A stretch of DNA of 64,000 nucleotides. Origin: Levilactobacillus lanxiensis. Lineage in GTDB: Bacteria > Bacillota > Bacilli > Lactobacillales > Lactobacillaceae. The DNA lies in contig NZ_BOLN01000001.1 in assembly GCF_016861655.1 (NCBI RefSeq), forward strand, positions 372,001-436,000, read 5' to 3'. The translations under genes and the position numbers were made by a program. Each line of letters begins with the position of its first letter. Positions within the stretch are counted from its first letter, which is position 1. Shown piece by piece: positions 7,446-49,573 of this stretch. The notes below the pieces were generated by a model. It ran no database searches and was not told where the DNA came from. It worked only from the letters and a program-made list of their open reading frames with translations.

Positions 7446-7660
7446 GGGTTAAACCCGTGTCAGCCGCAGAGAAGGTGAAAATGAGCCCAGCCGTGGGAAT
7501 TGCCTTAGTGGCGTGAGCCGCTTAGGCAATTGATACCTTTGAGACTCGCTTTTCAGAGGCTCAAAGTAAGTCTGGAGACCGCTCTTTGGCTCCAGACGTT
7601 CGCCCACAGCGGATCGGTCTCATTTTGACCTTCCCGGAGGCGCTGACATGAATTTAACCC
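7446..7660 (+). repeat. Structured repeat, short type, copy A1
   Basis: A 215-bp imperfect palindrome. The ends GGGTTAAA and TTTAACCC pair, then GTGTCAGC with GCTGACAT, then GGTGAAAATGAG with CTCATTTTGACC. These stems close a junction of three hairpins: ATTGCC...GGCAAT, CTTTGAG...CTCAAAG and GTCTGGAG...CTCCAGAC. It starts three bases from the stop codon of the minus-strand phosphoribosyltransferase gene and is followed, in that direction, by the terminator 7326-7379. The strand given is that of the GTCAGCCGCAG end; transcription from the host gene reads the other strand. Confidence 0.85.
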
Positions 7661-7662
7661 GT

Positions 7663-8211
7663 TTAATCGATGGGAAACAAGGGGAGCTTGGCCAAGTACT
7701 GAATGTCCGGCCGGTCCGCCGCGGCGCCCTCGGCCAGGATGGCCATCTGGCCCACAATGGTGGCCCCCGCCCGCTTCAACAATTCCTGAGCGGCGTTCAA
7801 TGAGCCGCCACTGCTAATGACGTCATCGACAATGACGACCTTCTTCGCAACCAACCGGTCGGCATCGGTGCCATCCAGCACCAACTCCTGCGGCGCACTG
7901 GTCGTGATGGCCGTTACGGGAACCTTGAGGGGCGCCCGCATGTAATCCTTGGTGGCCTTTCGCAGAACCACAAATTGCGGGTGATCGGTCAGCCGGCTAA
8001 GCTCTTGGGCCAACGGAATGCCCTTACTCTCTAACGTGACAAAATAATCGAACTTCTTAGGCACTAACTGGGCCAATTGTTCCGCAGCATAATCGGTTAA
8101 CTCAGCATCCCCTAATAGCACAAATGAGGCAATCGCTAAATCCTGACTGATGGGCACCACGGGCAACTGCCGCGTGATGGGTCCCACTTTTAACTCATAC
8201 GTTTTTAACAT
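7663..8211 (-). CDS. Purine-type phosphoribosyltransferase (adenine phosphoribosyltransferase-like)
   Basis: A 182-residue type I phosphoribosyltransferase. The PRPP-binding loop VVIVDDVISSGGS is present at about residues 124-136, with the upstream FDYFVTLESKGIPLAQELS resembling the PPi-loop region of adenine and xanthine phosphoribosyltransferases. It would convert a free purine base plus PRPP into the nucleotide. It lies three bases downstream of a purine/uracil-type permease gene, so the pair probably imports and traps a nucleobase. Length and the absence of the xanthine-enzyme signature make adenine-type the best guess, but the base is not proven. Its stop codon abuts repeat A1. Confidence 0.8.
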   Translation of the reverse strand: MLKTYELKVGPITRQLPVVPISQDLAIASFVLLGDAELTDYAAEQLAQLVPKKFDYFVTLESKGIPLAQELSRLTDHPQFVVLRKATKDYMRAPLKVPVTAITTSAPQELVLDGTDADRLVAKKVVIVDDVISSGGSLNAAQELLKRAGATIVGQMAILAEGAAADRPDIQYLAKLPLFPID

Positions 8212-8214
8212 CGT

Positions 8215-9288
8215 TTAGACCCCCAGTCCAACTAGTAACAACCCCTTCAACAGGCCCCCGGTTAAGAGACCGGCAAACGGATCGGCCACGGCCGTCACCA
8301 CCAAGGTAATTGCGGCCACGGTCGCGTCCTTCCCCTGCAAGGCCGTCGCCGCATCTGCCGGAAAAATCACGACGGCCCCCAAAATAAACAGGAAACCAGC
8401 AATCGAGGCGCTCGGCACGTATTTTCCCAGCCGGGGCAACCAACCCACCGCCAGAATCGCGGCCATAATCAGCATCATCAGAATCCCGGCAATCACCGGT
8501 TCCGGCGCACTCGCCGTTGCGGAAATAATTGTTTCGACTGGTGCCCCACCGAGCAGGCTGGTCCCCATATCGGCTAACGACTGCGTAATCGTCAACAGGT
8601 TCAGGTTGACCGGATTGGGCCTAAGCCCCGTCATCTCCCCTGTAATCAACCCATAGGAAATATTGGCCCCAATGTTCAGACAGGCCAGGCTCAACGCCCC
8701 ACGGACCACACGGGGATTAAGCGTTGGTTTCGTAAAGACAAATCGGCGAGCCGTCACGTGTTCTGGCAGCTCGGCACGGTAGTGGGTAATGAAGACGGCG
8801 GCCAAGCTCGACCCGACCACGGACAAGACAATCGTCCAGACTAAGTCTTTGGTCACTAAATAGGTCACAGCGGCCAGTCCGACCGATGTCCACCCCGTCA
8901 GCCGTTCTTGCTTAGCCATCCCCAACGCAATCTTCGCCAGCATGAGCCCCACACCAGCCATCATCCCCGCCATGATGCCATTGCCCAGGAGCGCAACAAT
9001 TTTGGTGAGGGTCCCGGTCACCCCAATCAGGAGCATGACCAGGGAACCGCCTAAGATAATCGACGTTCGCTCGCGTAAATCCCTGCCCAGCTTTCCCGTC
9101 AGCGCTAAGGATTCCGCCTGAAAGGATAAGGGGGCCACGGCACCAAATGCCCCGTTGACCGCTGAAGCAAACAGAAACGAAAACATCGTCGGGAATATCG
9201 AGAAGCCTAGTGACATCGCCATAATTCCCTGGGGAATCCCATTTAAGACAACCCCGATTGCTGCCAACAGATCCGCTAACCAATGCAT
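8215..9288 (-). CDS. NCS2-like nucleobase permease
   Basis: A 357-residue protein with about ten hydrophobic helices, beginning MHWLADLLAAIGVVLNGIPQ. Gly-rich segments such as GIMAGMMAGVGLMLAKIALG and the ISYGLITGEMTGLRPNPVNL region fit the xanthine/uracil/purine permease superfamily. The ATG at 9288 has GGAGGG about nine bases upstream; an upstream in-frame ATG at 9363 lacks a good ribosome binding site. It is the first gene of a two-gene operon with the phosphoribosyltransferase. A possible pair of PurR-like boxes lies upstream at 9393-9432. The nucleobase transported is inferred from the partner gene only. Confidence 0.75.
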   Translation of the reverse strand: MHWLADLLAAIGVVLNGIPQGIMAMSLGFSIFPTMFSFLFASAVNGAFGAVAPLSFQAESLALTGKLGRDLRERTSIILGGSLVMLLIGVTGTLTKIVALLGNGIMAGMMAGVGLMLAKIALGMAKQERLTGWTSVGLAAVTYLVTKDLVWTIVLSVVGSSLAAVFITHYRAELPEHVTARRFVFTKPTLNPRVVRGALSLACLNIGANISYGLITGEMTGLRPNPVNLNLLTITQSLADMGTSLLGGAPVETIISATASAPEPVIAGILMMLIMAAILAVGWLPRLGKYVPSASIAGFLFILGAVVIFPADAATALQGKDATVAAITLVVTAVADPFAGLLTGGLLKGLLLVGLGV

Positions 9289-9392
9289 CAGATGTCCACC
9301 CTCCACACGTTTCTTGCCCATTATTTTAACATTCGCTTTCTTTCTACAGAATACGTTAATCAAATGATATTGTCCACTTATTTTTGCATTTA

Positions 9393-9432
9393 TACGAACA
9401 TTAGATATAAATTGCGTTATTATTTTCGGATA
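9393..9432. promoter_or_regulatory. Possible paired PurR-like boxes
   Basis: ACGAACATT and ATTTTCGGAT form an inverted pair about 20 bases apart, upstream of the nucleobase permease. Spacing and sequence recall the inverted CCGAACAWT boxes bound by Gram-positive PurR, but each box deviates from that consensus. Confidence 0.35.
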
Positions 9433-9444
9433 TATTTAAGGTCA

Positions 9445-9479
9445 TAAAAAAGTGTGACTCACCATTCGTTGAGTCACAC
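9445..9479 (-). terminator. Terminator of the 9493 gene
   Basis: A perfect stem GTGTGACTCA/TGAGTCACAC followed on the minus strand by six T residues. Confidence 0.9.
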
Positions 9480-9492
9480 AACCATTATCTCG

Positions 9493-10173
9493 TTAAGAAT
9501 TTTTCAACTGCCGTTCCTGCACCGCGACCCGCAACAACCGCCACGAATCCGGTAACTGCAACGTCTCCAGCTGGCCATGCGCCAACGCCACGGCCTCCTG
9601 CACAAGTTGGCCCGCATGCGTATCACAATCCGCCGGGACATAGCCATCGCACTGGCGGTTCTGCGTGAGCAGTTGGGTCAGGAGTTTTCGCAAAATCGTG
9701 ACCCCTGCCGGTAGGAGTAGTTGGTGGGCCGTCACGCCAATCTCTTGCAGCCAGCACTGCGCCTGACTGGCGACACCCGCCAACCTGGCTGGCGTTGCTG
9801 GGCCACCCGACTGCTGAACCACGACGAGCCCAACCAACGCGCCCATCGTCGCTAACACCGTGGCATGATTCACCTGAGCCAAGTCTAATAGTAGATAGTT
9901 GGCGACGGTTGGCTGCCACGCCGGCGTCGTGACTGGCAGTGCCGCCAACAGCTGATTGCCGAGACGGCCGTAGACGGAGTGTCCTAATTTCTCAATCAGG
10001 TCTTCCAACGACACCTGGGGAACGATGGTGAGCTCGTCGGTCGCTGTATCCTGGATCAACAGGTCCCGTGGCTCCGGGCCCAACAACGCGACCAGGCTAG
10101 CACTGGGGTCGGTCGACCACGGTAGCCGCGGCACAAAGTCTGCCCCCGCAGTCTGAACATTAAATTGTCTCAC
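9493..10173 (-). CDS. Uncharacterised protein
   Basis: About 226 residues, with no signal peptide and no family I recognise. A GTG start at 10173 (MRQFNVQTAG) is preferred because GGAGG sits seven to eight bases upstream; an in-frame GTG at 10191 overlaps that ribosome binding site. The middle is rich in Leu, Ala, Val and Gln with probable amphipathic helices (NHATVLATMGALVGLVVVQQ and REDWR-poor Leu runs). One Cys pair is present late (CDGYVPADCDTH). It stands alone between the permease and a divergent MerR regulator, and has its own terminator. The closing residues ERQLKNS are charged. It could be a lineage-specific cytosolic protein. Confidence 0.6.
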   Translation of the reverse strand: MRQFNVQTAGADFVPRLPWSTDPSASLVALLGPEPRDLLIQDTATDELTIVPQVSLEDLIEKLGHSVYGRLGNQLLAALPVTTPAWQPTVANYLLLDLAQVNHATVLATMGALVGLVVVQQSGGPATPARLAGVASQAQCWLQEIGVTAHQLLLPAGVTILRKLLTQLLTQNRQCDGYVPADCDTHAGQLVQEAVALAHGQLETLQLPDSWRLLRVAVQERQLKNS

Positions 10174-10266
10174 ACCCGCATCCCTCCTCACCTATCAGCA
10201 GTGTACCCCCTTCGACCTACTTGAAGGCAACCCTTTTGTGCCTACATTTTAAACTGAGACAAACGC

Positions 10267-10295
10267 TTGCGCAAATGCCAGCAAACGTGTATGAT
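10267..10295 (+). promoter_or_regulatory. Promoter of the merR-like gene
   Basis: TTGCGC, 17 bases, TATGAT, about 55 bases upstream of the start codon at 10349. The 17-base spacing is ordinary rather than the stretched 19 bases of many MerR-activated promoters. Confidence 0.55.
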
Positions 10296-10348
10296 TGAAA
10301 ACATTGCTTAGAGTTAGTCGAACGCGAACCTTTTGAGGAGGGACCTAG

Positions 10349-10771
10349 ATGTCTTATACCATCCACGAAGTTGCTCAGAAAATGGGCATTTCAACCTATA
10401 GTATTCGCTATTACCACGATCACGGCATGTTGCCCAACGTCAAACGGGACGCCAACAACAACCGCGTGTTTAACGATGTCGACTTGGAAGGGTTACATAT
10501 CATCCTGTGCTTACGCGGGACGGGGATGCCCGTCGAACGGATTCAGCACTACCTCGATCTCGTCCAACAAGGGGAATGCACCGTGCCTGAACGCTATGAA
10601 ATGATGCAAGCGCAACAGGAACGGACGCTCCGCGAAATCGCTGACCTTAAGGAACACCTGTCGACCATCAACTTCAAGGTTGATCATTACGCAGAAATTA
10701 TGAAAACTCACCAGCCCGATAGTTTTGTGCCCGCAAGTATGCGCGACACGGCCACCAACCAAACGGCTTAA
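10349..10771 (+). CDS. MerR-family transcriptional regulator
   Basis: A 140-residue regulator. Residues 1-70 are the MerR winged helix (YTIHEVAQKMGISTYSIRYY, then GLHIILCLRGTGMPVERIQHYL). A coiled-coil dimerisation helix follows (MMQAQQERTLREIADLKEHL). The C-terminal tail is short and contains no metal-binding Cys pair, so it belongs with the small-molecule or stress-sensing MerR proteins common in lactobacilli. GAGGAGG lies 8 bases before the ATG. A terminator separates it from the following MFS exporter gene, which may still be its target. The effector is unknown. Confidence 0.88.
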   Translation: MSYTIHEVAQKMGISTYSIRYYHDHGMLPNVKRDANNNRVFNDVDLEGLHIILCLRGTGMPVERIQHYLDLVQQGECTVPERYEMMQAQQERTLREIADLKEHLSTINFKVDHYAEIMKTHQPDSFVPASMRDTATNQTA

Positions 10772-10821
10772 ACTTGACCGGCTCCCACTAGCATTAACCA
10801 CAGTTTCATCAACCAAATCAG

Positions 10822-10855
10822 CCATCTCTCACCGTTGTGTGCGAGGTGGTTTTTT
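10822..10855 (+). terminator. Terminator after the merR-like gene
   Basis: A stem of 11 positions with one mismatch and one G-T pair (10822-10832 with 10839-10849), followed by six T residues. Confidence 0.75.
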
Positions 10856-10949
10856 GTTGAGTCAACTTTCTTGCACCCCCTTAACCAATATGCTACGCTT
10901 AACCACCTGCGATGCATTTATTAAATATTTTATGAGGGGGGTCCGCTCC

Positions 10950-12227
10950 TTGGAAACCACACACCTGCCGCACTGGCGGCGCAACATCTATCTCTTCTTA
11001 ACCAGTCAGTTCCTGTCGGGCATCACCAGTATGGTGGTCCAGTACGCCATCATCTGGTACTTGACCAAGCAAACGGGCTCGGCGACGGTGCTCAGCCTGG
11101 CCACCCTGCTGGGAATGCTCCCGATGGTGCTCCTCAGTCCCTTCGCGGGGCCATTCGTTGACCGATTGAACAAGAAGGCCCTGCTGATTGTGCCAGACAT
11201 CGTGGCTGCCGTCTTCGCCATCATTTTGTCGATTGCGGGCACGCTCCAATCGACCTTCCCCCTGTGGCTAATTTTCATTTCGCTACTAGTCCGGTCGATT
11301 GCGCAGACCTTTCAGATGCCAACGATTCAGTCGATTCTGCCCACCATGGTCCCGACCGATGAACTCACGCGCATCAACGGACAGCTGGGGATGGTCCAGT
11401 CGGCCAACATGATCATTTCACCGGCGCTGGGCGCATTTCTCTTTGCCATCGTCCCCATGAATTTCTTGATTCTGGTCGACGTGCTGGGCGCTATCATTGG
11501 GATTAGCCTGTTGACGTTCGTGCGGATTCCCGAGCATCCCGTGATTGACGAGAAGGTCCACGTTCTTGCCGATGCCAAATTTGGGCTGATGAAACTCCGT
11601 AACACGCGGGGCCTCTGGGCCATCACCATGATTGGTGCGACCTTCACGCTGATGTTCATGCCCGCCGCCAGCCTGTACCCGCTGATGACCATGGGCTACT
11701 TCCACGGCACGGTCGGCCAAGCTGGGCTGATCGAAGTCATTTACTCCGTCGGCATGCTTGCTGGGGGCGCCATCATTGGCCTCTTTGGTAATTGGCGCGA
11801 CCGGATGAAACCCATCTTCTGGGCGACCGTCGCCATGGGCATCACCTTTGGTGGTAGTGGCTTTCTGCCGGGCAACCAAACCGGCTTCGTCTGGTTCGTG
11901 GTGTTAAATGCCTTAGCCGGTGCCATGACGCCGTTCTACAGCACCCTGTTGATGGCGATGATTCAACAGAGTTTTCCTGCCGACCAACTCGGCCGCGTGC
12001 TAGGCGTGCTCAACTCCTTGACCAGTGTTGCCGGACCGGTCGGCCTGATTTTTGCGGGTCCCCTGGCCGACAGCATTGGCGTCGAAAAGCTGTTCATCAT
12101 CGGTGGCCTCGGCTCCCTGATTTGCGGTCTCGCCATGTGGCTATTGCCAAGTGCTCGCGCTTACGATCAGCAGTTACAGGCGCGCCTAGCAACTGAGGCG
12201 TTGGCTCAACCTGATTTAGATGATTAA
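10950..12227 (+). CDS. MFS efflux transporter (MefA/MFS_3-like)
   Basis: A membrane protein of about 425 residues with 12 hydrophobic segments. It starts METTHLPHWRRNIYLFLTSQ, a layout typical of MefA-like macrolide/drug efflux proteins, including the early FLSGITSMVVQYAIIWYLT and the loop PFAGPFVDRLNKKALLI. A TTG codon at 10950 is chosen because GAGGGGGG lies eight bases upstream; the open frame extends further back to 10725 but would include part of the preceding terminator. The substrate is unknown; drug or metabolite export is inferred from family. A terminator at 12233-12261 follows directly. Confidence 0.82.
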   Translation: METTHLPHWRRNIYLFLTSQFLSGITSMVVQYAIIWYLTKQTGSATVLSLATLLGMLPMVLLSPFAGPFVDRLNKKALLIVPDIVAAVFAIILSIAGTLQSTFPLWLIFISLLVRSIAQTFQMPTIQSILPTMVPTDELTRINGQLGMVQSANMIISPALGAFLFAIVPMNFLILVDVLGAIIGISLLTFVRIPEHPVIDEKVHVLADAKFGLMKLRNTRGLWAITMIGATFTLMFMPAASLYPLMTMGYFHGTVGQAGLIEVIYSVGMLAGGAIIGLFGNWRDRMKPIFWATVAMGITFGGSGFLPGNQTGFVWFVVLNALAGAMTPFYSTLLMAMIQQSFPADQLGRVLGVLNSLTSVAGPVGLIFAGPLADSIGVEKLFIIGGLGSLICGLAMWLLPSARAYDQQLQARLATEALAQPDLDD

Positions 12228-12232
12228 TCCTG

Positions 12233-12261
12233 AGGATCTGTTTCCGGACAGGTCCTTTTTT
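12233..12261 (+). terminator. Terminator of the MFS exporter gene
   Basis: AGGATCTGTT pairs with GACAGGTCCT, followed by six T residues, eight bases after the stop codon. Confidence 0.8.
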
Positions 12262-12314
12262 CTTACCTACCTAATGGCCATTCATTCTGGTCGGCCAAAT
12301 CCGCATCACAACCC

Positions 12315-12358
12315 AAAAAGACACAGCCAAGGGGGAAAACCTCCTGGCCGTGTCTTTA
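12315..12358 (-). terminator. Terminator of the flavin oxidoreductase gene
   Basis: On the minus strand AAAGACACGGCC pairs with GGCTGTGTCTTT, followed by a T-run. Confidence 0.85.
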
Positions 12359-12406
12359 CTTGCTAAAACAAGTATTTTCTATTCGCGAAATTAATAATTG
12401 GTGGGA

Positions 12407-13594
12407 CTACATCTTCTTCTCGAAACCTTCCATTGGCGCCGCTTCGTTTTGGTAATCGGCCGCAACGGCGGGGTCCGTGGTGAAGTGCATGACGGAGTAG
12501 AAGGCGCCCTTCAGGTAGTACTGCATGGCCACCGGAATCTTCAGTTCGGTCATTTCAGATGGTGAGAGTTGGTAACGAATGCTGGCTTCATCCCCGTCCG
12601 ACACCTTTTCCATCCATTGCGGTTCCCGGATCATTTCGCGGCCCATGGCTACCAAATCAGCCCCCATGGCGAGAACGGCATCGGCGTCAGCCGGCGTTTC
12701 CACGGAACCGACACCAATCAATGGCTTGCGGCCAGCTAATTGGGCAACGAACTTCTTGATTAGCGGTTCGTGGTCGCTCTTGTCGTTCAGGGATGTCCGT
12801 TGTGCGGAACCCATGGACATGTGGACGTAATCCACGGCGGAATCCCCTAACATGTCCAGGAAGGCCAAGCTATCAGCTAAACGAATCCCTGGTGTTTCGA
12901 TTTCCTCAGGTGAGATTCGGTAGCCCAACAGGAATGGGCGGTCGGCGTACTGGGTAATCGCCTTATGGGCACTGGCAATCACAGCCTTGGCAAAGGCCAT
13001 CCGGTCATCACGGTCGCCACCCCATTTGTCGGTCCGACGATTTGAGTTAGGAGAGAAGAACTGTTGCAGCAGGTAGGTATTGGCTCCGTGCAGTTCGACC
13101 CCGTCAAAGCCAGCGGCGATGGCCCGACGCGTGGCTTCGCCAAAGGCAACAATCAACTCATCAATTTCTGCCCCCGTCATTTCCCGCGGCGTCTGGGAAT
13201 CGGCTGGAAAGGCAGCTTTAACGGCACTAGCACTGACCGGTTGGGCGCCACGGAGAATGCTGTCGTTAGACTTTCGGCCAGCGTGGAAAATCTGCAGGAC
13301 AGCCTTGGTGCCATTGTGCTTCATGGCGTTGGCCAAACGGCTCAGTCCCTCGATGTCGGTATCATCGGCAATCGACAGTTCGCCTTCAAAGCCCTTACCG
13401 CCAGCAATCACGTTCGCCACTTCGCCAATGATCATGCCAACGCCACCGGCCCGAGCGCCGTAGAAGTCGATTTCATCGTTGGTCACGTGGCCGTCGTAGA
13501 AACTCGACATGGTCGTGGTTGGGGACATGATTACCCGGTTCTTTAACGTAACCCCGTTCTTAAAGCTAAAGTCCTGTTGAAAATTATAAGTCAT
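12407..13594 (-). CDS. NADH-dependent flavin oxidoreductase, Old Yellow Enzyme family (YqiG-like)
   Basis: A 395-residue FMN enzyme with a TIM-barrel fold. Family landmarks: KNRVIMSPTTTMSS near the N-terminus, HAGRKSNDS, the substrate/FMN segment ELHGANTYLLQQFFSPNSN followed by RRTDKWGG, and the late IGVGSVETPADADAVLAMGA. Old Yellow Enzymes reduce activated C=C bonds with NAD(P)H. The ATG at 13594 is supported by AAAGGTGG eight bases upstream; an in-frame GTG at 13606 overlaps that site. The start overlaps the stop of a small winged-helix gene by 11 bases, so the two are translationally coupled and the regulator may control this enzyme. Confidence 0.9.
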   Translation of the reverse strand: MTYNFQQDFSFKNGVTLKNRVIMSPTTTMSSFYDGHVTNDEIDFYGARAGGVGMIIGEVANVIAGGKGFEGELSIADDTDIEGLSRLANAMKHNGTKAVLQIFHAGRKSNDSILRGAQPVSASAVKAAFPADSQTPREMTGAEIDELIVAFGEATRRAIAAGFDGVELHGANTYLLQQFFSPNSNRRTDKWGGDRDDRMAFAKAVIASAHKAITQYADRPFLLGYRISPEEIETPGIRLADSLAFLDMLGDSAVDYVHMSMGSAQRTSLNDKSDHEPLIKKFVAQLAGRKPLIGVGSVETPADADAVLAMGADLVAMGREMIREPQWMEKVSDGDEASIRYQLSPSEMTELKIPVAMQYYLKGAFYSVMHFTTDPAVAADYQNEAAPMEGFEKKM

Positions 13595-13892: not shown

Positions 13893-13938
13893 CGCGCCAC
13901 CTCCTCAACGAAACCTAGCATAACCGCTTGCCGGGCAG

Positions 13939-13965
13939 AAAAAAAGAAGGCACTTAAAAGTACCT
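13939..13965 (-). terminator. Terminator of the hxlR-like gene
   Basis: AGGTACTT/AAGTGCCT stem on the minus strand followed by a T-rich run, a few bases after the stop codon. Confidence 0.7.
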
Positions 13966-13970
13966 CCTCG

Positions 13971-14342: not shown

Positions 14343-14494
14343 GTGATGACCTCCTCAATAGTTTTACCCATTATAGCGCCTAAGCGACCTTTTGGGGAGT
14401 AGGCACCTTTTAGTAACCATGGAATCAATTCCCCAATCCATCGTTAAAAGCGTAGAATGAGATTAATTTAAAATTGAGAGGTAAGTGTTTGTAA

Positions 14495-15170: not shown

Positions 15171-15247
15171 TGTTCAAACAACTTGTTTTCTAGTTTAAAA
15201 ACTCATATTACCCGAAAGGCCTAGGAAACACCGTGCTGGCTCCCAAT

Positions 15248-15537
15248 GGGTTAAACCCCTGTCAGCCGCAGGGCTGGGAAAACTGAACCAGTCGTGGAAG
15301 TGACCAGAGGCGAGCCAAGATGTCCGGCTGTGTCGATGGCCTTGGCTGGGGTACTTTCTCAGCCTAGCCCATGGGGCAACCTTTGAGACCGCCCTCCGGC
15401 TCAAAGTTGAGGTGGAAAACCGTTTCTCAGGTTGGAACCGACCCCACAGCAGGGTATCTTGGGCGCGCCGCCGGGAACAGACGCGACCAGGCTCAGTTTT
15501 CACCAGCCCGGAGGCGAAGTCAACATCAATTTACCCC
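15248..15537 (+). repeat. Structured repeat, long type, copy B1
   Basis: A 290-bp copy of the long variant. Outer stem GGGTTAAA/TTTACCCC; GGCTGGGAAAACTG pairs with CAGTTTTCACCAGCC. The three internal hairpins include CTTTGAG...CTCAAAG. The right end contains the stop codon (15531-15533) of the minus-strand cation exporter, so the element is the start of that gene's 3' untranslated region, with a terminator at 15140-15170 beyond it. Confidence 0.8.
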
Positions 15538-18409: not shown

Positions 18410-18652
18410 TTTTCTGCCTCCGCAATTGATTTATGTACTTCTTAGTTTCAATTTTAGGCCAACCCATCAACAACTACAATGGCTAACACTAAATAGTGAT
18501 TGTCCGATTAATAATTAAGATAAACGACAATCATTGTCGCAGATTACTGTCTTAAATATGCTAATAATGTCCTATGCATACGATGGACAGCAACTATCCC
18601 TTCAACTCAATTTAGCAACTGGGCACGCCAACAATCACCCTCCCGTAACTAC

Positions 18653-18948
18653 GGGCTAAACTAGTGTCAGCCGCAGAGATGGCGGAAATTGCGCCATTCA
18701 CATACCAGGTGAGTGACCAGAGGCGGATCAAAATGACCAGCTGTGTCGATGCTCTTAGCTGAGTGCTTTATTCTCAGCTTAGAGCATCGGGCGACCTTTG
18801 AGACCGCACTCCGGCTCAAAGTCGAGGTGGAAGACTGCCTTTTAGTCTGGAACCGACCCCACAGCAGGGCGTTTTGAATCCGCCGCCGGGAACGGAATAG
18901 CTACTACGTTCCGACGTAATTTCCACCATTCCTTCAACCCAATTTAGA
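18653..18948 (+). repeat. Structured repeat, long type, copy B2
   Basis: About 296 bp. Clear hairpins are GCTCTTAGCTGAG...CTCAGCTTAGAGC and CTTTGAG...CTCAAAG, and GGATCAAAATG pairs with the GTTTTGAATCC side. GATGGCGGAAATT pairs with AATTTCCACCATT, the same stem position that other copies fill with GGTGAAAAT/ATTTTCACC. No gene ends here: it lies upstream of the lipoprotein gene 17639-18409. Confidence 0.75.
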
Positions 18949-18996
18949 CTAGACTAAGACAATTGGGCACGCCAACGACCACCCTCCCGTAACTGC

Positions 18997-19180
18997 GGGC
19001 TAAACCAGCGTCAACCGCAGGGATGGGAAAACTGCACCACCATGTTAGTGACCAGAGGCAGGTCAAGGTGAACAGCTGTGTCGGTGGTCTTGGCTGAGTG
19101 CTTTATTCTCAGCTTAGAGCACGGGGCGACCTTTGAGACCGCGTCTCAGGCTGGAGCCGGACCACCCAACGGCGGACATT
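18997..19180 (+). repeat. Structured repeat, long type, truncated copy B3
   Basis: Starts GGGCTAAACCAGCGTCAACCGCAGGGATGGG and follows B2 through the GGTCTTGGCTGAG...CTCAGCTTAGAG hairpin and the CTTTGAGACCGC segment, then breaks off into unrelated sequence near 19170, losing its right arm. About 45 bases upstream of it repeat the sequence upstream of B2, so it arose by tandem duplication. Confidence 0.65.
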
Positions 19181-19230
19181 AACTGCCACCAGCCATAACC
19201 AAATGTACCAACAACCAATCCCGTACCCGC

Positions 19231-19444
19231 GGGTTAAACTCGTGTCTGCCGGAGGGATGGTGGAAATGAGCTCAGCCGTGGGAGTTGCCTTAGTGGCCTG
19301 CCACTTAGGCAACTGCTATCTTTGAGACGTGCTCTTCGGCTCAAAGTAAGTCCGGAGACCGCCCTTTGGCTCCGGACGTGCGCCCACCGCGTTCCGGTTC
19401 AATTTCCACCATCCCGGAGGCCGTGACAACGACTAGTTTAACCC
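19231..19444 (+). repeat. Structured repeat, short type, copy A2
   Basis: A 214-bp copy. GGGTTAAACT pairs with AGTTTAACCC; GGATGGTGGAAAT pairs with ATTTCCACCATCC. Hairpins AGTTGCC...GGCAACT, CTTTGAG...CTCAAAG and GTCCGGAG...CTCCGGAC are intact. It lies between repeat B3 and the DhaT-like gene and is not preceded by a gene end. Confidence 0.8.
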
Positions 19445-29876: not shown

Positions 29877-29965
29877 TAACACTTCTATTGTAAGTTAAAA
29901 TCCACCACTAAATTGATAAGTGATTAGCAACGAGCCACAAAACAAATTAGTCAGACCAACTTGAT

Positions 29966-30056
29966 GGCGGGGCTAAACCCGTGTCAGCCGCAGGGATGGT
30001 GAAAATGGGACTAGCTATGAGCAATGTTAGTGACCAGAGGCGGGTCAAGCTGCCAC
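29966..30056 (+). repeat. Structured repeat, truncated copy
   Basis: Carries only the left arm (GGGCTAAACCCGTGTCAGCCGCAGGG...GGTGAAAATGGG) and the start of a long-type body (GTGACCAGAGGCGGGTCAAG), then stops. The 70 bases before it are repeated before A3, so the pair arose by tandem duplication. Confidence 0.7.
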
Positions 30057-30134
30057 TAAAAATATAACCCTAACACCACGCTGATAAGTAACTGACAACG
30101 ACCCCGTAGCACAAATTAGCCAGACCAACTTGAT

Positions 30135-30354
30135 GGCGGGCTAAACCCGTGTCAGCCGCAGGGATGGTGAAAATGGGCCAAGCCGTGGGAGTTGCCTTAG
30201 CGGGTTCCCCGCTTAGGCAACTGCTATCTTTGAGACGTGAACTTCGGCTCAAAGTAAGTCTGGAGACCGCCCTTCGGCTCCAGACGTGCGCCCACAGCGT
30301 CACGGCCCATTTTCACCATCCCGAAGGCGATGATTAGAACAAGTTTAACCCGCC
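30135..30354 (+). repeat. Structured repeat, short type, copy A3
   Basis: A 220-bp copy with a long outer stem: GGCGGG/CCCGCC and TAAAC/GTTTA. GGATGGTGAAAATGGGCC pairs with GGCCCATTTTCACCATCC without mismatch. Hairpins AGTTGCCTTAGCGGG...CCCGCTTAGGCAACT, CTTTGAG...CTCAAAG and GTCTGGAG...CTCCAGAC are intact. It ends nine bases from the stop codon of the minus-strand MFS gene. Confidence 0.85.
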
Positions 30355-33735: not shown

Positions 33736-33755
33736 CCCCTGGCATTTCCAGCAGA

Positions 33756-33846
33756 CCGACCACTTTCCTACGCGAGTCTTAGCTCAACAGGTTCAAAGGG
33801 ATTGGCACGTGTCCATCTCAGCCGACTGGCACCCCTAGTGTCTTTT
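33756..33846 (-). promoter_or_regulatory. TPP riboswitch (THI element)
   Basis: On the minus strand the conserved thi-box blocks appear in order: GGGGTGCC, GGCTGAGAT, CCCTTTGAACCTG and CGTAGGAAA. This aptamer binds thiamine pyrophosphate and turns off the downstream thiW gene when thiamine is sufficient. Confidence 0.92.
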
Positions 33847-35178: not shown

Positions 35179-35470
35179 AGTTCTAAACCCGTGTCAGCCG
35201 CAGGGCTGGGAAAACTGGGCCGGTCGTGGAAGTGACCAGAGGCGCGCCAAGGTGCCCGGCTGTGTCGATGGTCTTAGCTGAGCGATTTTTCTCAGCTTAG
35301 AGCATGGGACAACCTTTGAGACCGCACCCCAGGCTCAAAGTTGAGGTGGAAGCCCGCCCTTCGGCTGGAACCGACCCCACAGCAGGGCGCCTTGAGCGCA
35401 CCGCCGGGAACGGACGCGACCAGGCACAGATTTCACCAGCCCGGAGGCGCCAGAACGCCCGTTTAGAACT
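35179..35470 (+). repeat. Structured repeat, long type, copy B4
   Basis: A 292-bp copy. The outer stem is AGTTCTAAAC/GTTTAGAACT, which replaces the GGGTTAAAC/GTTTAACCC pairs of other copies and spans the last codons and stop (35463-35465) of the minus-strand response regulator. Internal hairpins GGTCTTAGCTGAG...CTCAGCTTAGAG and CTTTGAG...CTCAAAG are present. Confidence 0.82.
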
Positions 35471-43014: not shown

Positions 43015-43026
43015 TCTTGCCACCCC

Positions 43027-43821: not shown

Positions 43822-44091
43822 TATCCATCAACCTCCGTTAGTTATGAAATTCACTGTTGTGGCGTTTTTCATTGCGGTCTTGTGCAGTTTTCACAAATTA
43901 TGCCCGCATATTCCGGAAAGTGTGCAATTTTATGCCTGGGGCTATTCCGCTTTAGACCGCCCTTTGTAAGCGCTTGACATTATTATAGGCAGAATATTCC
44001 TGGAATAATATTAGGCATTTCCCTAATATATGTGAAAGTGCTTACATGGTAAGCTAGACCCATCAAATGCATTAACCTGCTCTTGGTGTCT
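43822..44091 (-). promoter_or_regulatory. Control region of the suf operon
   Basis: A minus-strand TATAAT lies near 43981-43986. Two TTATGCC motifs (43898-43904, 43930-43936) occur between it and the start codon, and an AATATTCC-T-GGAAT near-palindrome lies around 44000. A GAAAGTGCTTACA stretch near 44032 differs from cre by one base. No riboswitch is recognised. Confidence 0.45.
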
Positions 44092-44390
44092 GGGTCAAAC
44101 GTCTTTTAACAGCGCCTCCGGACTGGTGAAAATGGGCCGGTCCGTGCTGAACGTTCCCGCCGGTGGCCTCAAGACGCCCTGCTGTGGGGACCGGCTCCAG
44201 CCTGAGAAGCGGTCTGGGGCCTCGCCTTGAAACCTCGCTAAAAACCGCGAGTTTCCAAGGTCGTCCCGTGCTCTAAGCTGAGAAAATCACTCAGCTAAGA
44301 CCACCGACACAGCTGGTCATCTTGGCCCACCTCTGGTCACTCACACGGCGCGCATTTTCACCAGCCCTGCGGCTAAGACTTGTTTGGCCC
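44092..44390 (-). repeat. Structured repeat, long type, copy B5 (inverted)
   Basis: A 299-bp copy in the opposite orientation to the others. Outer arms GGGTCAAAC/GTTTGGCCC, then GCGCCTCC...GACTGGTGAAAATGGGCC and the matching CATTTTCACCAGCCC side. Hairpins CTTGAAA...TTTCCAAG and GCTCTAAGCTGAG...CTCAGCTAAGACC are present. It lies upstream of sufC, not after a gene end. Confidence 0.78.
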
Positions 44391-44635
44391 GTCACCAAGG
44401 CGGTTCATGCAGTTGATGAGTAGCTGACCATGCCATTGGTTGGTTGTGCTACTTCTTCTATCACTTAATCATTATTCTGGCTGTGCGCCTCTATCACATA
44501 ATTTGATGGCAACTTAGCCACTGCTTAATCTCGTGCGCAGCTGCTTACTTGAATAATGCAAACATAAGCTTGCTGATTAAACCTGTCTCACCTATATGAT
44601 TGCGGGAGAACCAGTGGCAACCAAATGACACGCAA
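44391..44635. other. Non-coding stretch between repeats B5 and A4
   Basis: About 245 bases without a gene, RNA or repeat that I recognise. It separates two oppositely oriented repeats between the divergent suf and feo operons. Confidence 0.4.
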
Positions 44636-44849
44636 ACTGGTGCTGGTTAAACCAACGTCAGCCGCAGGCAGGGTGAAAATGGCTTCAGCCGTGGGAATGT
44701 TCTTAGCCGCGCTCTTTGCGGGTTAGAACATTGGTGTCTTTGAAACTCGCTCCTCAGAGGTTCAAAGCATCCCGGAGACCGCCCTTTGGCTCTGGCACGT
44801 TCCGAGCCATTTTCAGCTTGCTGAAGGCGAAATCACTGGCACACCAGTA
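44636..44849 (+). repeat. Structured repeat, short type, copy A4
   Basis: About 214 bp. Compensatory forms: AATGTTCTTAG...GTTAGAACATT for hairpin 1 and CTTTGAA...TTCAAAG for hairpin 2. GGGTGAAAATGGCT pairs with AGCCATTTTCA. It is directly followed by copy A5, and the first 45 bases of both are nearly identical. Confidence 0.8.
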
Positions 44850-44858
44850 TCAAACCGG

Positions 44859-45081
44859 TGCTGGTTAAACCAACGTCAGCCGCAGGCAGGGTGAAAATGA
44901 GCTCAGCCGTGGGAGTTCCCTTAGCGGTTTACCGCTTAGGGAACTGATATCTTTGAGACTCGCTCCTTGAGGCTCAAAGTAAGTCTGAAGACCGCTTCCC
45001 AGGCTTCAGGCGGCGCCCACAGCGTCACGACTCAGTTTTCACCCTGCCGGAGGCGAAACCAACGACAATATTTAACCAGCA
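44859..45081 (+). repeat. Structured repeat, short type, copy A5
   Basis: A 223-bp copy with outer stem TGCTGGTTAAAC/ATTTAACCAGCA, another set of compensatory changes. Hairpin 1 is AGTTCCC...GGGAACT, hairpin 2 CTTTGAG...CTCAAAG, hairpin 3 GTCTGAAG...CTTCAGGC. It ends 34 bases before the feoA start, so the feo promoter must lie in or next to it. Confidence 0.82.
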
Positions 45082-45114
45082 AAACCTGTTTAAAGACTTA
45101 ATTTGAAAGGCCTG

Positions 45115-45348
45115 ATGATAATGCAACTCCGTTATTCAGAATCAGCCTATCCAATCGTAACTGTCGAACAGATGGCGACCCTTGATGGCCAGACCGCTCA
45201 CCGACTACATAACCTCGGCATTCACCCTGGCAGCCAGCTGACCGTGCTCCGGCAATATCCGTTTCACGGCCCCGTCATCGTTGAATTCGATCAGCAGAAA
45301 GTTGGGATTCGCTACGTCGTTTTCGAAGCACTCTTAGGGGGGCACTAG
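45115..45348 (+). CDS. feoA: FeoA, ferrous iron transport accessory protein
   Basis: A small cytosolic SH3-like protein of about 77 residues: LRYSESAYPIVTVEQMATLDGQTAHRLHNLGIHPGSQLTVLRQYPF with the typical LxxLGI-x-PG-S turn, ending VVFEALLGGH. It assists FeoB. ATG 45115 has GAAAGG five bases upstream; TTG at 45103 and ATG at 45121 are alternatives. It ends two bases before feoB, so the two form one operon with the small Cys-rich gene at 47355. Confidence 0.9.
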   Translation: MIMQLRYSESAYPIVTVEQMATLDGQTAHRLHNLGIHPGSQLTVLRQYPFHGPVIVEFDQQKVGIRYVVFEALLGGH

Positions 45349-45349
45349 C

Positions 45350-47338
45350 ATGACAACCGTTGCCCTCTTAGGAAATCCAAATACTGGCAAGACCACGCTA
45401 TTTAACGAACTGACCGATAAATATGCCTACGTTGGTAATTGGGAAGGGGTCACCGTTGACAAGAAGATGGGGAAGATTCGCCACTCTGAAATGGTGGTGG
45501 TCGACCTCCCCGGCATCTATTCCCTCACGCCAATCACCAAGGACGAGGCCGTCGCCTGCAACTATTTGCTAAACGACTCGCCCGACATGATTTTAAACGT
45601 CACCAACGCCAGTCAGCTGAAACGCAACCTGCTGCTCTCTATTGAGCTGTTGGAATTCGGCCGCCCGGTGGTGCTCGCCTTAAACATGATTGATGATTTG
45701 AAAACAAACGGGGTCACCTACGACTTCGACGAACTGGCTAAACGCTTGGGCTGTCAGGTCCGCGCCACCAACGCTCGGAAGAAATCGGGACTGGATCAAC
45801 TCCGCCAAGAACTGTTGGCCACGCCGCCGGAAACGACCGCGCCCCTGCACTTGGCCTATCCCGCTGCGGTTCAGGACGCCATCGCCACGGCCACGCAACA
45901 GCTGGTCGCCGACGATCAATTGACGCCGACCTTTGCCAACTGGCTAGCGATTCAGTTCATGAACCGTAACCAAATCGTCCGCCGCTACGCCAGCAAGCAC
46001 CAATTGAACCCTCTCCTGACCCAGCAGGACGCTTACGACAAACAAGACTTTGAGGAACAAATCTTCCAAACGCGACTGGCCTTCATTGATGAAACGCTGA
46101 CGGCCACGACCAAGTATCTGCACGAGGTCTCCAATGCCAATTTGACGGCGAAGATTGACCGCATCGTCACCCATCCCCTGTTGGGGCTCCCCATTTTCGT
46201 GGGTATATTCCTGTTAATGTTCAAGCTATCCTTCGATTGGATTGGAACGCCGCTGTCGGACGTGATGGACGCCTTTATCTCCGGGCCACTGTCCGCGACC
46301 GCCAGTCACTTTCTGACCAGCGTTGGGGCCATGCCGTTTCTGAAATCCCTAATCGTTGACGGCATTATCGCCGGCGTTGGGGGCGTGCTCAGCTTCATTC
46401 CTCAGATTTTCGTGTTGTTCGCGTGCATTTCCATTCTGGAAGATTCCGGCTACATGGCCCGCGCCGCGCTAGTGACCGACCGGCTGATGCAGCTGATTGG
46501 GCTCAACGGTAAAGCCTTCATTCCGCTGATTATCGGCTTCGGCTGTAACGTCACGGGGATCATGGCCGCGCGCACGATTGAGCAACCCAAGGAACGGCTG
46601 GTCACCACGCTGATCTCGCCATTTATGAGTTGTTCGGCCCGGCTCCCCATCTATGGGCTGTTCGTTGCCGCCTTCTTCGACCGGAACCAGGCGCTGATCG
46701 TGCTCTCCCTCTATTTCCTGGGGATTGCGCTGGCGCTGTTTATGGCCAAGATTTATCAGTGGGTGTTTAAAGTTAAAGAAAATTCCGTCTTCATTATTGA
46801 ATTGCCCAAGTACCACATGCCCCGGCCGGACATCATCGCCATGGGCACCTGGGAAAAGGGCAAGGGCTTCATCCGCAAGGCCGGCACCGTCATTTTTGGC
46901 GGCACCGTGCTCATCTGGCTGCTGTCCAACCTGGGACCAGCCGGCATGGTGACCAACATCGACCAGAGTTTCTCCGCCATGATTGGCCGCTTCGTCCTGC
47001 CCGTCTTCGCCCCTATCGGCATCACCTCGTGGCAAACGATCAGCGCGCTGATGACCGGGATTCTGGCCAAGGAAGTCATCAGTTCCAGCATGATCGTGCT
47101 CTTCCATTTGAGCGGGCAAACCGGTTTGATTGCCACCTTCAGTTCCCTGTTCACCCCGTTGTCTGCCTACGCCGTCCTGGTCTTCATCCTGATTTACGCA
47201 CCGTGCTTTGCCACCTTGGCGACCATCAAGGCCGAAACCAATTCGACCAAGTGGGCCGTTTATTCCGTGGTCTCCAACACGGTGATCGCCTACCTGGTCG
47301 CGATGATTATCTTCCAGGTCGGGTCGCTATTCATTTAA
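45350..47338 (+). CDS. feoB: FeoB, ferrous iron transporter
   Basis: A 662-residue membrane protein. The N-terminal GTPase has GNPNTGKTT (G1), DLPGIYSLTP (G3) and NMIDD (G4), followed by a helical domain to about residue 260. The membrane part contains the Fe(II) gate segments VGGVLSFIPQIFVLFACISILEDSGYMAR and PLIIGFGCNVTGIMAAR, with Cys in GFGCNV, plus a late YAPCFATLATIKAE. It drives Fe(II) uptake, which fits the adjacent suf operon for Fe-S assembly. It is the second gene of the feo operon. Confidence 0.96.
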   Translation: MTTVALLGNPNTGKTTLFNELTDKYAYVGNWEGVTVDKKMGKIRHSEMVVVDLPGIYSLTPITKDEAVACNYLLNDSPDMILNVTNASQLKRNLLLSIELLEFGRPVVLALNMIDDLKTNGVTYDFDELAKRLGCQVRATNARKKSGLDQLRQELLATPPETTAPLHLAYPAAVQDAIATATQQLVADDQLTPTFANWLAIQFMNRNQIVRRYASKHQLNPLLTQQDAYDKQDFEEQIFQTRLAFIDETLTATTKYLHEVSNANLTAKIDRIVTHPLLGLPIFVGIFLLMFKLSFDWIGTPLSDVMDAFISGPLSATASHFLTSVGAMPFLKSLIVDGIIAGVGGVLSFIPQIFVLFACISILEDSGYMARAALVTDRLMQLIGLNGKAFIPLIIGFGCNVTGIMAARTIEQPKERLVTTLISPFMSCSARLPIYGLFVAAFFDRNQALIVLSLYFLGIALALFMAKIYQWVFKVKENSVFIIELPKYHMPRPDIIAMGTWEKGKGFIRKAGTVIFGGTVLIWLLSNLGPAGMVTNIDQSFSAMIGRFVLPVFAPIGITSWQTISALMTGILAKEVISSSMIVLFHLSGQTGLIATFSSLFTPLSAYAVLVFILIYAPCFATLATIKAETNSTKWAVYSVVSNTVIAYLVAMIIFQVGSLFI

Positions 47339-47354
47339 AAAGGAGCGCTTGTCC

Positions 47355-47504
47355 ATGTCAATCCTGATTAATAGCGTTATTGTTATTGCCATCATTGGTG
47401 GCGCTGGGTTCGTGTTGTACCGGCATTTGAAAAAGTCCAGCCAGGGCAGCTGTCCGGCGTGCGAATACGATTGCCCCGCCAAACAACAACTGAAAAAGCA
47501 CTAA
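47355..47504 (+). CDS. FeoB-associated Cys-rich membrane protein
   Basis: A 49-residue protein: one N-terminal membrane helix (SILINSVIVIAIIGGAGFVLY), a basic stretch (RHLKKSSQ) and a Cys cluster CPACEYDCPAKQQ. This matches the small FeoB-associated Cys-rich proteins that follow feoB in Firmicutes and may take the place of FeoC. AGGAG lies eight bases upstream of the ATG, 16 bases after feoB. The gene is too short for many gene finders. The following repeat C starts 22 bases after its stop codon. Confidence 0.88.
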   Translation: MSILINSVIVIAIIGGAGFVLYRHLKKSSQGSCPACEYDCPAKQQLKKH

Positions 47505-47526
47505 GCTGAAAAACACGTGTCGTAAT

Positions 47527-47709
47527 GCGCTACGCCGGCGGGCGACCGGTGCTCCCAGCCTATGGGGACCGCCCGAAGCCTGAGAAGCGGTCTTCGCGCT
47601 AGAGCCTCAAAGTACAGAGTCTCCAGCACGTCCAGTGGCGTAAGCCGACCCAGAACGTCGACAAACGCCACGAACACAGGATTCCGCACCGGTCGCCCGC
47701 CAGCTACGC
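47527..47709 (-). repeat. Structured repeat, diverged variant C
   Basis: A 183-bp relative in the opposite orientation. The arms GCTACGCCGGCGGGCGACCGG and CCGGTCGCCCGCCAGCTACGC pair almost fully, and read on the minus strand the body contains CTTTGAGGCTC and GAAGACCGCTTCTCAGGCTTC, which match the cores of the other copies. It follows the feo operon on the plus strand and is followed 97 bases later by a terminator. Confidence 0.65.
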
Positions 47710-47805
47710 TAACCCTAGTTTTTCGGTTGCGCCTTTTCATTGTTGGCGGTCAGCGCATTTGTGCTACTGTTATCATTACTTAATTCGTCTTCCTCCAAAT
47801 AGTTA

Positions 47806-47849
47806 TAGGTCGTGATTCCTAATCAAATGGAATTACGACCTATTTTTTT
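47806..47849 (+). terminator. Terminator of the feo operon
   Basis: TAGGTCGTGATTCC pairs with GGAATTACGACCTA, followed by seven T residues. Confidence 0.92.
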
Positions 47850-47873
47850 GATTATCCTCTGCGTGTAAGCGTT

Positions 47874-48022
47874 TCAAATCAAAAATCGGCAATTTTTTAA
47901 TAAACAGCGACGGTTGGACCCGTACAAATCAAAAAATCAGCCTTTTTTCAATAAACATCAACGGTTAACACCCGCGTAAATCAAAATCAACCGTTTTTCC
48001 ATTAATGCTACGATTAAGCTGA
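47874..48022 (+). repeat. Three tandem 50-52 bp repeats
   Basis: Three degenerate units begin AAATCAAAA at 47876, 47926 and 47978. Each runs AAATCAAAAATC, a short GC part, TTTTTT, AATAAACA or ATTAATGC, and an ACGGTTnnAcCCG or CGATTAAG end. No gene covers them. The spacing (50 and 52 bases, about five helical turns) puts the units on the same face of DNA. Confidence 0.65.
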
Positions 48023-48054
48023 TACCCTATTAGGTGACATTCTCCCAGATAGCA

Positions 48055-48094
48055 AAAGATCGTGACCCTTAGTTTTAGGGAATCACGACCTTTT
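48055..48094 (-). terminator. Terminator downstream of repeat A6
   Basis: AAGGTCGTGATTCCCT pairs with AGGGTCACGATCTT and is followed by T residues. Its arm matches the feo terminator at 47806, so the two terminators may be related copies. Confidence 0.8.
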
Positions 48095-48176
48095 CTGTTA
48101 GTAATCAACATTCACGTAAAGTGTCTGTTCACGCAGTCAGTCTAGAAAACTGCCGAACTAGCAAACACTTTGCGAC

Positions 48177-48381
48177 CGGGCTAAATCTACGTCAGCCGCA
48201 GAGATGGTGAAAATGAGTTCAGCCGTGGGAGTGGCCTTAGCGGTTTCACCGCTTAGACCACTGATATCTTTGAGACGTGATTTTCGGCTCAAAGTAAGCC
48301 TGGAGACCGCTCCTTGACTCCAGGCGTGCGCCCACAGCGTCACGACTCATTTTCACCATCTCGGAGGCGACCATTTAGCCG
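48177..48381 (+). repeat. Structured repeat, short type, copy A6
   Basis: A 205-bp copy. CGGGCTAAAT pairs with ATTTAGCCG; GAGATGGTGAAAATGAG pairs with CTCATTTTCACCATCTC. Hairpins AGTGGCC...GACCACT, CTTTGAG...CTCAAAG and GCCTGGAG...CTCCAGGC are intact. It overlaps the last 14 codons of the minus-strand glycosyltransferase, whose C-terminal NGRLRDGENES is encoded by the repeat. Confidence 0.85.
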
Positions 48382-49203
48382 TTGGAGCTGTTGCTGGTAG
48401 TTCAGGAATAGACCGGTAAACTTGCCGTCGCTGGCCGGGTCCCACGGCTTGGGCGTCCCGCAGTAATGCAGAATCACCGTATTGGCCATCACCCAGTGAA
48501 TCTCGTGCTGATTCAGGCTGCGCGTCTGGTACATCAGGTATTTACGCGTGTCGTAGTTCCAGATTTCCTCGGAAATTTCCAAAATATCCGGCCCGTACAG
48601 GAAGTTCAAGATATCCTGATCCGGTAAAATTAACTCGCTTTCATATTTCTCAATTGTCTGCGTGATGTCGCTCAGCTTAATCTTGGTCCGCGCTTGGTCC
48701 AAATCAATGACCAGCACACCCGAGTTGAAATAGCTGGTCGTCGTGCCCAGCCGCAACTGATTGACGCTGTCCATAAGATTGGTCACGCCGCGGTGAACGG
48801 CGGCCGCTAACATGTGACCCGCTAAATCTAGCGTCCATAATGGCCGTAAATTGTTAATCACCAACAAGTCCGGGTCCAAATAAATGACCCGCTTCACTGA
48901 TTTCGGCAAAATCTGTCCGCTCAAGAGGCGGAAATACATTTCCCGTGGATACCGTTTGATCAAGGGAACGCCAGCCGTGAAGTCCGCCGTCACCCGTTCG
49001 GCGCTCAACTCCCAGCCAAACGCCGTGGTCAGTCGCCGCACAGACGCCACCTCATCAGGCGTCAGACTGGCATGCACCAGCCACAAATGCATGCGTTCCC
49101 CAGGATTATTGGCGTGCGCCGAATACAACATAACTTTCAACGGCTCCAAGTATCCAGAATTGAGTGTGACCAGCAAATTAATTTCATCAGACAAAGCTTC
49201 CAC
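48340..49203 (-). CDS. Glycosyltransferase family 8 protein
   Basis: A protein of about 287 residues of the GT8 family (LPS-galactosyltransferase/glycogenin type). The metal-binding DxD is in YLDPDLLVINNL, with YFNSGVLVIDLDQAR, LPDQDILNFLYG and the late ILHYCGTPKPWDP, all diagnostic. It transfers a sugar from a nucleotide sugar, perhaps for wall polymer or glycoprotein decoration. The start is unsettled: GTG 49203 has a weak ribosome binding site; TTG 49194 (MSDEINLLVTLNSG) gives the usual GT8 start. The C-terminal tail is encoded by repeat A6, so the original end of the protein was probably replaced or extended. Confidence 0.82.
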   Translation of the reverse strand: MEALSDEINLLVTLNSGYLEPLKVMLYSAHANNPGERMHLWLVHASLTPDEVASVRRLTTAFGWELSAERVTADFTAGVPLIKRYPREMYFRLLSGQILPKSVKRVIYLDPDLLVINNLRPLWTLDLAGHMLAAAVHRGVTNLMDSVNQLRLGTTTSYFNSGVLVIDLDQARTKIKLSDITQTIEKYESELILPDQDILNFLYGPDILEISEEIWNYDTRKYLMYQTRSLNQHEIHWVMANTVILHYCGTPKPWDPASDGKFTGLFLNYQQQLQRLNGRLRDGENES

Positions 49204-49385
49204 CGACTTCCGTTTGATTTGGTTGATTCTATCTCCATTAAATCACGTTTACTGCCTATTTTTGATTCCGACGACTTACAAGTTACACCACAATCTGTGG
49301 TCGTAATTTATGACGCATAATTTTGCTCGGAACCCACCCACCATCAATACCCGAGGCACAATTTTGCTTGAGACCCGCTCCACCC
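49204..49385. other. Non-coding region upstream of the GT8 gene
   Basis: About 180 bases with no gene. It holds the GT8 promoter and short AATTTTGCTxGxG repeats (49320 and 49361). Confidence 0.35.
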
Positions 49386-49573
49386 CAGCCGTGAGGGCGA
49401 CAAAAAATGGGTTCAGCCGTGGGATTTACTGAGCGGTCAGCTCAGTAAATGGCGACTTTGAAACTCGGGCTGTGAGGTTCAAAGCGAGGTCGAAGACCGC
49501 TTCTCAGGCTTCGGCCGTCCTGCCCACCGCGTTCCGACCCATTTTTTGTCGCCCGGTAGGCGCTGACAACGAC
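49386..49573 (+). repeat. Structured repeat, short type, diverged copy A7
   Basis: About 188 bp. Stem GGGCGACAAAAAATGGGTTC pairs with GACCCATTTTTTGTCGCCC, a different sequence from the GGTGAAAATGGG/CCCATTTTCACC stem of other copies but at the same place. Hairpin 1 is ATTTACTGAG...CTCAGTAAAT, hairpin 2 CTTTGAA...TTCAAAG. It lies between divergent genes and lacks the outer GGGTTAAA arm. Confidence 0.78.

Follow-up and report, generated by a model that had tools for sequence, protein, structure and literature searches.

The 64 kb window analyzed here, a stretch of contig C1 in a Levilactobacillus genome of 3.03 Mb and 24 contigs (G+C 51.9%), contains 14 copies of one family of structured intergenic repeats, and this family spans at least 14 genera of Lactobacillaceae. 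What has been kept in these repeats is the fold of one strand, while the letters that form it change. We read the copies as a mobile element that is old, family-wide and non-autonomous, with selection preserving its folded strand. To this reading we give a little less than an even chance; its mobility, the enzyme that would move it and any function in the host are things that we infer. The host is placed near two species of its genus, Levilactobacillus wangkuiensis and L. mulengensis, by its FeoB, which is 99% identical to theirs.

A fold kept while the letters change

A direct-repeat search, alignment and profile searches all back a single repeat family in the window, as a first-pass annotation had proposed, and all 14 copies belong to it. 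Nucleotide profiles recovered 13 of the 14 (E<1e-4). Because the profiles were trained on 11 window copies, 11 of these 13 matches arise by construction, and independent support therefore comes from copies elsewhere on the contig, which, together with those at 18997-19180 and 29966-30056, stood outside the profile alignments. The fourteenth copy (47527-47709) was missed by the profiles and recovered by a covariance model, R2, that had been built without it. Apart from the divergent copy at 47527-47709, two main types occur, a short one (about 215 nt) and a long one (about 290 nt). The abundance first estimated, about one copy per 4.6 kb, holds beyond the window: by profile there are 104 non-overlapping copies or fragments in 436 kb of contig C1 (5.0% of bases) and 75 in 400 kb of four other contigs (3.7% of bases), giving 179 in the 836 kb sampled. 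Extrapolation from these two profile samples gives an estimated genome total of about 650, fragments included, or about 4% of the genome. R2 gave at least 150 matches in the genome, all 150 candidates scored out of 1594 first-look candidates being matched.

The short type has an outer stem, some 20 bp long and broken near its foot by an internal loop, that leads to a junction with three hairpins; CTTTGAG..CTCAAAG forms one of them. The junction is four-way in Levilactobacillus and three-way in the wider family. Single copies already fold far better than chance would allow: z was -11.8 for the short copy at 30135-30354 and -8.8 for the long copy at 35179-35470, and in each case none of 200 shuffles was as good. 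Two-sided changes were seen in 29 of 58 pairs among 17 copies from the genus, and in 30 of the 81 pairs predicted for 17 long copies, the latter a figure without a shuffle control. In the genome itself, the best 40 of 124 local R2 matches (some places being counted on both strands) had 97.3% of cells paired against 84.1% when shuffled, with two-sided change in 38 of 61 pairs against 23.

The strongest evidence comes from 54 sequences at 33 loci in several other genera and species. Here 95.6% of cells are paired, against 67.2% in shuffled alignments, and 49 of 51 pairs show two-sided change, against 36.1. The covariation score is 0.691, compared with 0.179 when shuffled (none of 500 shuffles was as high) and at most 0.107 when slid. 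The alignment was fitted to the model, which favors pairing; in our judgment the excess of two-sided cells, 765 against about 204 when shuffled, well exceeds that bias. Loss of the shared fold on alignment of the copies, which had been named beforehand as a possible refutation, was thus not seen.

The internal loop is also conserved, in two matched classes. Among 55 full copies, 31 have CAG with GGAGG and 16 have NGAG with GGYAAGG; eight fall outside these simple patterns, and no full copy clearly mixes the classes. By eye, a T-T mismatch inside CTTAG/CTTAG of the second hairpin is kept in several types and across genera.

Distribution within Lactobacillaceae

The question of a limit to one genus, raised in the first-pass annotation, was at first answered in its favor by a BLAST search with one short copy, which matched 22 of 58 genomes, all of the same genus. 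The covariance model overturned that limit. Weak matches appeared in L. zymae, L. acidifarinae and a Limosilactobacillus metagenome-assembled genome, and then in Lactiplantibacillus herbarum; these relatives have a simpler three-way-junction form with similar loops, in which 41 of 51 predicted pairs are two-sided across 12 sequences. A model of the three-way form, R1, also recognizes the copies of the window, as well as one in L. plantarum. With at most nine candidates scored per genome and strict filters, which lose weak matches, R1 matches 85 of 301 Lactobacillaceae genomes (our own among them), which belong to 14 of 40 genera. Under the same filters, 12 of 295 genomes in an order-wide draw match, all of them Lactobacillaceae, and one of 299 in a class-wide draw, which is our own genome. 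No genome outside Lactobacillaceae was therefore matched in either draw at this stringency.

The first-pass annotation recognized no described family, and this was borne out in the stretches scanned, with no credible match among the 4227 families of Rfam release 15. At gathering scores the window gave a thiamine pyrophosphate (TPP) riboswitch only, and no copy was matched. A short copy, a long copy and six further loci (the three-way-junction copies L120, L126, L134 and L142, and two plasmid loci) were also scanned permissively, and at the element positions no score came close to a gathering cut-off. A Levilactobacillus short copy had no match in plasmids or phages, and a Lactiplantibacillus unit had none in phages. 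A search of viral contigs gave one match, L097, where two copies lie at 830-1080 and about 1190-1375; this contig of the viral collection may be truly viral or may be host flank.

Placement, mobility and competing explanations

By a simple gene caller, none of 104 copies lies more than half inside a gene, and, in agreement with the first description, no reading frame is open through more than five of 55 full-length cores. Of the 104 copies, 62 passed a length filter and seven of these lacked an end anchor, leaving the 55 for which distances to genes were taken. A gene boundary lies within 130 nt of the right end in 42 of the 55 and of the left end in one. Copies thus sit with the 3' end towards a gene. 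On the right, 27 copies have a neighboring gene on the opposite strand and 28 have one on the same strand; in 23 of the 27 opposite-strand cases the gene's stop codon falls 11-37 nt past the GGC anchor. The terminal stem often reaches into the last codons of the neighboring gene, and its best complementarity averages 7.8, compared with 5.4 when ends are mismatched. On C1 and the four other contigs, with fragments less than 60 bp apart merged, neighboring copies less than 700 bp apart are divergent in 35 cases, tandem in 10 and convergent in none; opposite-strand neighbors at this distance are thus back to back in 35 of 35. Insertion into intrinsic terminators was considered and rejected, no regular T-tract being seen by eye on the gene's strand in the flanks inspected.

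Mobility is best suggested by paired units that have inverted ends and are found in part on plasmids. In one genome, G304, which we take as Lactiplantibacillus because it belongs to the same genus (g55) as G331, whose matches equal those of L. herbarum, R1 matched 54 of 150 scored candidates, and we read these as 26 divergent back-to-back pairs and two singles. The pairs sit in repeated units of 0.72-0.87 kb, and 19 of 22 units examined have inverted ATGATTAAAACGTGCC-like ends (at most three substitutions); of the three exceptions, two have no pair by the fuzzy pattern and one has a spurious left end. Parts of the unit match 26 plasmid records (Lactiplantibacillus 19, Ligilactobacillus 7), none over 80% of the unit. 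Likeness among the G304 units (L155, L157, L189-L208) seems to fade gradually past the unit ends. The GTTAAAC/GTTTAAC ends may also resemble the cores of integron attC sites.

Sister species often hold an element at the same sites. The interior type was switched in four of 13 strict orthologous comparisons at 11 sites, with more in a synteny list, and these switches are read as recombination between copies.

If the copies are a non-autonomous mobile element, its basic unit would be the inverted pair, with the 3' ends as outer borders, and single copies would be the remains of pairs. An enzyme supplied in trans would recognize the folded strand, either as single-stranded DNA exposed at replication or as RNA, and move the element; recombination between copies would then swap the inner part at fixed sites. 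We can also imagine, more doubtfully, a distinct class of mobile element in which the folded strand is itself the heritable and recognized entity. An undescribed enzyme or host process would insert it with fixed polarity at gene ends, the terminal stem closing on the last codons, and the letters would drift almost freely while the junction fold and the two loop classes persist.

Several observations weigh against a mobile element. Among five presence/absence differences from L. mulengensis, two look like deletions in L. mulengensis, one looks like an internal deletion and one like a decayed copy in our own genome, and the fifth was assigned to no class. No clean empty site and no target duplication were found in flanks judged by eye. 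One plasmid copy has lost its core, apparently between short direct repeats. Between the L. plantarum plasmids L187 and L183, whose shared flanks are more than 99% alike, two deletions within the unit make the difference, and short direct repeats seem to border each of them. A candidate for an empty plasmid site proved to be a partial deletion, and none was seen among the other matches listed. Deletions, decay and core loss thus demonstrate turnover, without a proven new insertion. Single copies have a detectable opposite-strand remnant on their 5' side in only four of 32 cases (same-strand remnants in 0 of 32; shuffled flanks, 0). Native terminal arms score 8.0, against 8.35 for arms swapped between sister species. 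Since swapped arms pair equally well, the idea that compensatory changes maintain this stem between the species was rejected, and any selection on the stem is hypothetical. Finally, no autonomous version was noticed, the search for unit ends being confined to G304, where 41 places have such ends (at most three mismatches) with no pair spaced like an insertion sequence (IS) noticed, the neighborhoods of solitary ends being unread.

Two partner enzymes were considered and rejected as requirements. A Y1 transposase is present in 23 of 35 genomes of the genus, with two in our own, yet copy-rich G012, G030 and G005 have none. A reverse transcriptase (RVT_1) is present in 10 of 35, with one in our own, yet copy-rich G026, G020 and G005 have none; past reverse-transcriptase activity may nonetheless have played a part.

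The strand evidence bears on the most serious competitor of the mobile element, a cis-acting RNA module in 5' or 3' untranslated regions, whose RNA fold would stabilize, terminate or regulate the neighboring gene. On the modeled strand, G-U cells outnumber A-C cells by 83 to 29 of 2637, and by 135 to 35 of 2372 in our own genome. Among 52 cores of A9, 44 fold more stably on the modeled strand than on the complementary one; our own genome gives 27 of 36 for short cores and 16 of 19 for long ones. With full-length copies this lead shrinks (to 22 of 36 for short and 12 of 19 for long). A ratio of about 3:1 together with the stabler modeled strand indicates that probably one strand folds, as RNA or as single-stranded DNA. 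These counts speak for an RNA module, and published text describes comparable repeats as co-transcribed in B. cereus (PMC3446304) and some BOX elements as expressed in pneumococcus (PMC3049150). However, for 27 of the 55 copies the neighboring gene lies on the opposite strand, and its mRNA would contain the complement. G-U makes up just 3-6% of cells, and in full-length folds its share is alike on both strands (0.064 vs 0.065 for short, 0.062 vs 0.073 for long copies). There is also no promoter enrichment in the 160 nt upstream of the 55 copies, the best match averaging 8.33 in the sense direction, 8.29 in reverse and 8.31 when shuffled. Since about half of the copies would put their opposite strand into the neighbor's mRNA, no promoter signal is seen and G-U is scarce, we lean, weakly, to a DNA-level substrate, and consider the RNA module somewhat unlikely.

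An ordinary miniature inverted-repeat transposable element (MITE), in which the terminal inverted repeats matter and the inner fold is incidental, would account for the inverted ends and the repeated 0.72-0.87 kb units of G304. Two features expected of a MITE are indeed found, namely terminal inverted repeats (19 of 22 G304 units) and a non-coding interior (no shared frame in the Levilactobacillus cores). Yet 49 of the 51 pairs in the inner fold show two-sided change, which would be unexpected if only the ends mattered, and target duplication is not evident in the flanks inspected, so that this explanation strikes us as unlikely. Polarity towards genes and intergenic placement would also suit a DNA site kept by the host for chromosome organization, such as a cruciform or a topoisomerase, nucleoid or recombination site. 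That idea is quite improbable in our view: 216 of 301 family genomes, the congener G031 included, have no match (some may hold divergent copies, given the strict filters), and G-U cells outnumber A-C cells, a hint that it is one strand that matters. An independently transcribed small RNA family amplified over the genome would explain why junction and loop motifs are conserved across genera, but is very improbable given the lack of promoter enrichment upstream.

Known repeat families and the copies in the window

REP and BIME elements, with their RAYT (IS200-like Y1) transposases, are likewise intergenic palindromic repeats, and the stem foot of the Lactobacillaceae repeats has GTAG/GGAG-like letters, as REP units do. 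The copies described here, junction folds of 200-300 nt, are larger than REP units, as had been noted, the latter being given as 20-40 bp (PMC3733652). They differ from REP/RAYT systems also in that Y1 transposases are missing from the copy-rich genomes G012, G030 and G005.

BOX elements are modular. With RUP and SPRITE, they are described as interspersed, strongly structured, slow-moving and thought parasitic, and as nearly confined to pneumococcus and S. mitis, although S. suis has a BOX-related set (PMC3049150); we set them apart from the Lactobacillaceae family by this published description. The bcr1-bcr18 repeats of the Bacillus cereus group are intergenic elements of 100-400 bp on chromosomes and plasmids, some MITE-like and some with conserved secondary structure; bcr1 reaches up to 130 copies, and about half are transcribed, for example within untranslated regions or operons (PMC6542083, PMC3446304). 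The bcr repeats are reported as confined to one species group and linked to a TTTAT motif, whereas the present family spans at least 14 genera, with an estimated 650 or so copies and fixed polarity; this distinction too is by published description. Closest in host is Lac-1 of Lactobacillus johnsonii, a 231 bp stem-loop family of 34 copies and type G (PMC2267715), which we take to mean genic. It shares a stem-loop nature and a lactobacillus host, a likeness by description only, and L. johnsonii is the lactobacillus that this survey of stem-loop families names. No description of the present family was found in searches of the open-licence literature. Structured non-autonomous interspersed repeats are already known (bcr, BOX, stem-loop families), and none of these accounts describes this family, which belongs with them in kind yet is unusual in breadth, copy number, covariation depth and polarity.

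About 4% of one genome consists of this repeat, which reaches at least 14 genera of much-studied industrial bacteria yet has no matching Rfam family; it matters for annotation, assembly and recombination in Lactobacillaceae genomes. On the strength of the covariation a fold can be named for probing. Polarity and the placement at stop codons offer clues to how copies would insert, and those in L. plantarum and other Lactiplantibacillus open the way to tests in standard laboratory strains.

The copies in the window are as follows.

7446-7660, plus strand: short copy; profile 207 bits (in the profile build), R2 180 bits; its right end adjoins the stop codon of the minus-strand gene 7663-8211.
15248-15537, plus strand: long copy; profile 303 bits; in the long-type alignment and fold.
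18653-18948, plus strand: long copy, degenerate at its right end, that opens a tandem trio; profile 284 bits; its flank is repeated at 18616/18960.
18997-19180, plus strand: long copy without right end, second of the trio; 136 bits, profile positions 2-154 of 290.
19231-19444, plus strand: short copy, third of the trio; profile 214 bits.
29966-30056, plus strand: left-end fragment; 50 bits, profile positions 2-77.
30135-30354, plus strand: short copy with the top R2 score in the window, 208 bits; fold z -11.8; terminal stem GGCGGG..CCCGCC.
35179-35470, plus strand: long copy; profile 292 bits; fold z -8.8; terminal stem AGTTCTAAAC..GTTTAGAACT.
44092-44390, minus strand: long copy; profile 282 bits; the site holds a short type in L. 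wangkuiensis.
44636-44849, plus strand: short copy, partly eroded; profile 161 bits, R2 110 bits.
44859-45081, plus strand: short copy upstream of feoB (45350-47338, by NCBIfam); profile 210 bits.
47527-47709, minus strand: third variant with a different outer stem; R2 43.5 bits at 47525-47711, E 4.6e-8.
48177-48381, plus strand: short copy; profile 204 bits; its right part overlaps the end of the minus-strand open reading frame 48340-49203.
49386-49573, plus strand: short copy of the GTGAG/GGTAGG internal-loop class; profile 145 bits, R2 141 bits; its internal loop, CAGCCGTGAG / CGGTAGGCG, is of the second class.

The first-pass annotation had given all copies a shared left and right end. Most do have GTCAGCCGCAG and GGAGGCG, and several lack a canonical end. 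Its listing carried no strands, with 44092-44390 and 47527-47709 now placed on the minus strand, and it said nothing of how copies are oriented towards genes, of back-to-back pairs or of matched classes of loop.

At the locus of the trio, L. mulengensis and L. wangkuiensis have one long copy each. Copies stand in tandem at 18616-19444 and 29942-30354, with their left flanks duplicated. The TPP riboswitch (RF00059, 60.5 bits) lies at window positions 33748-33846 on the minus strand, away from any copy.

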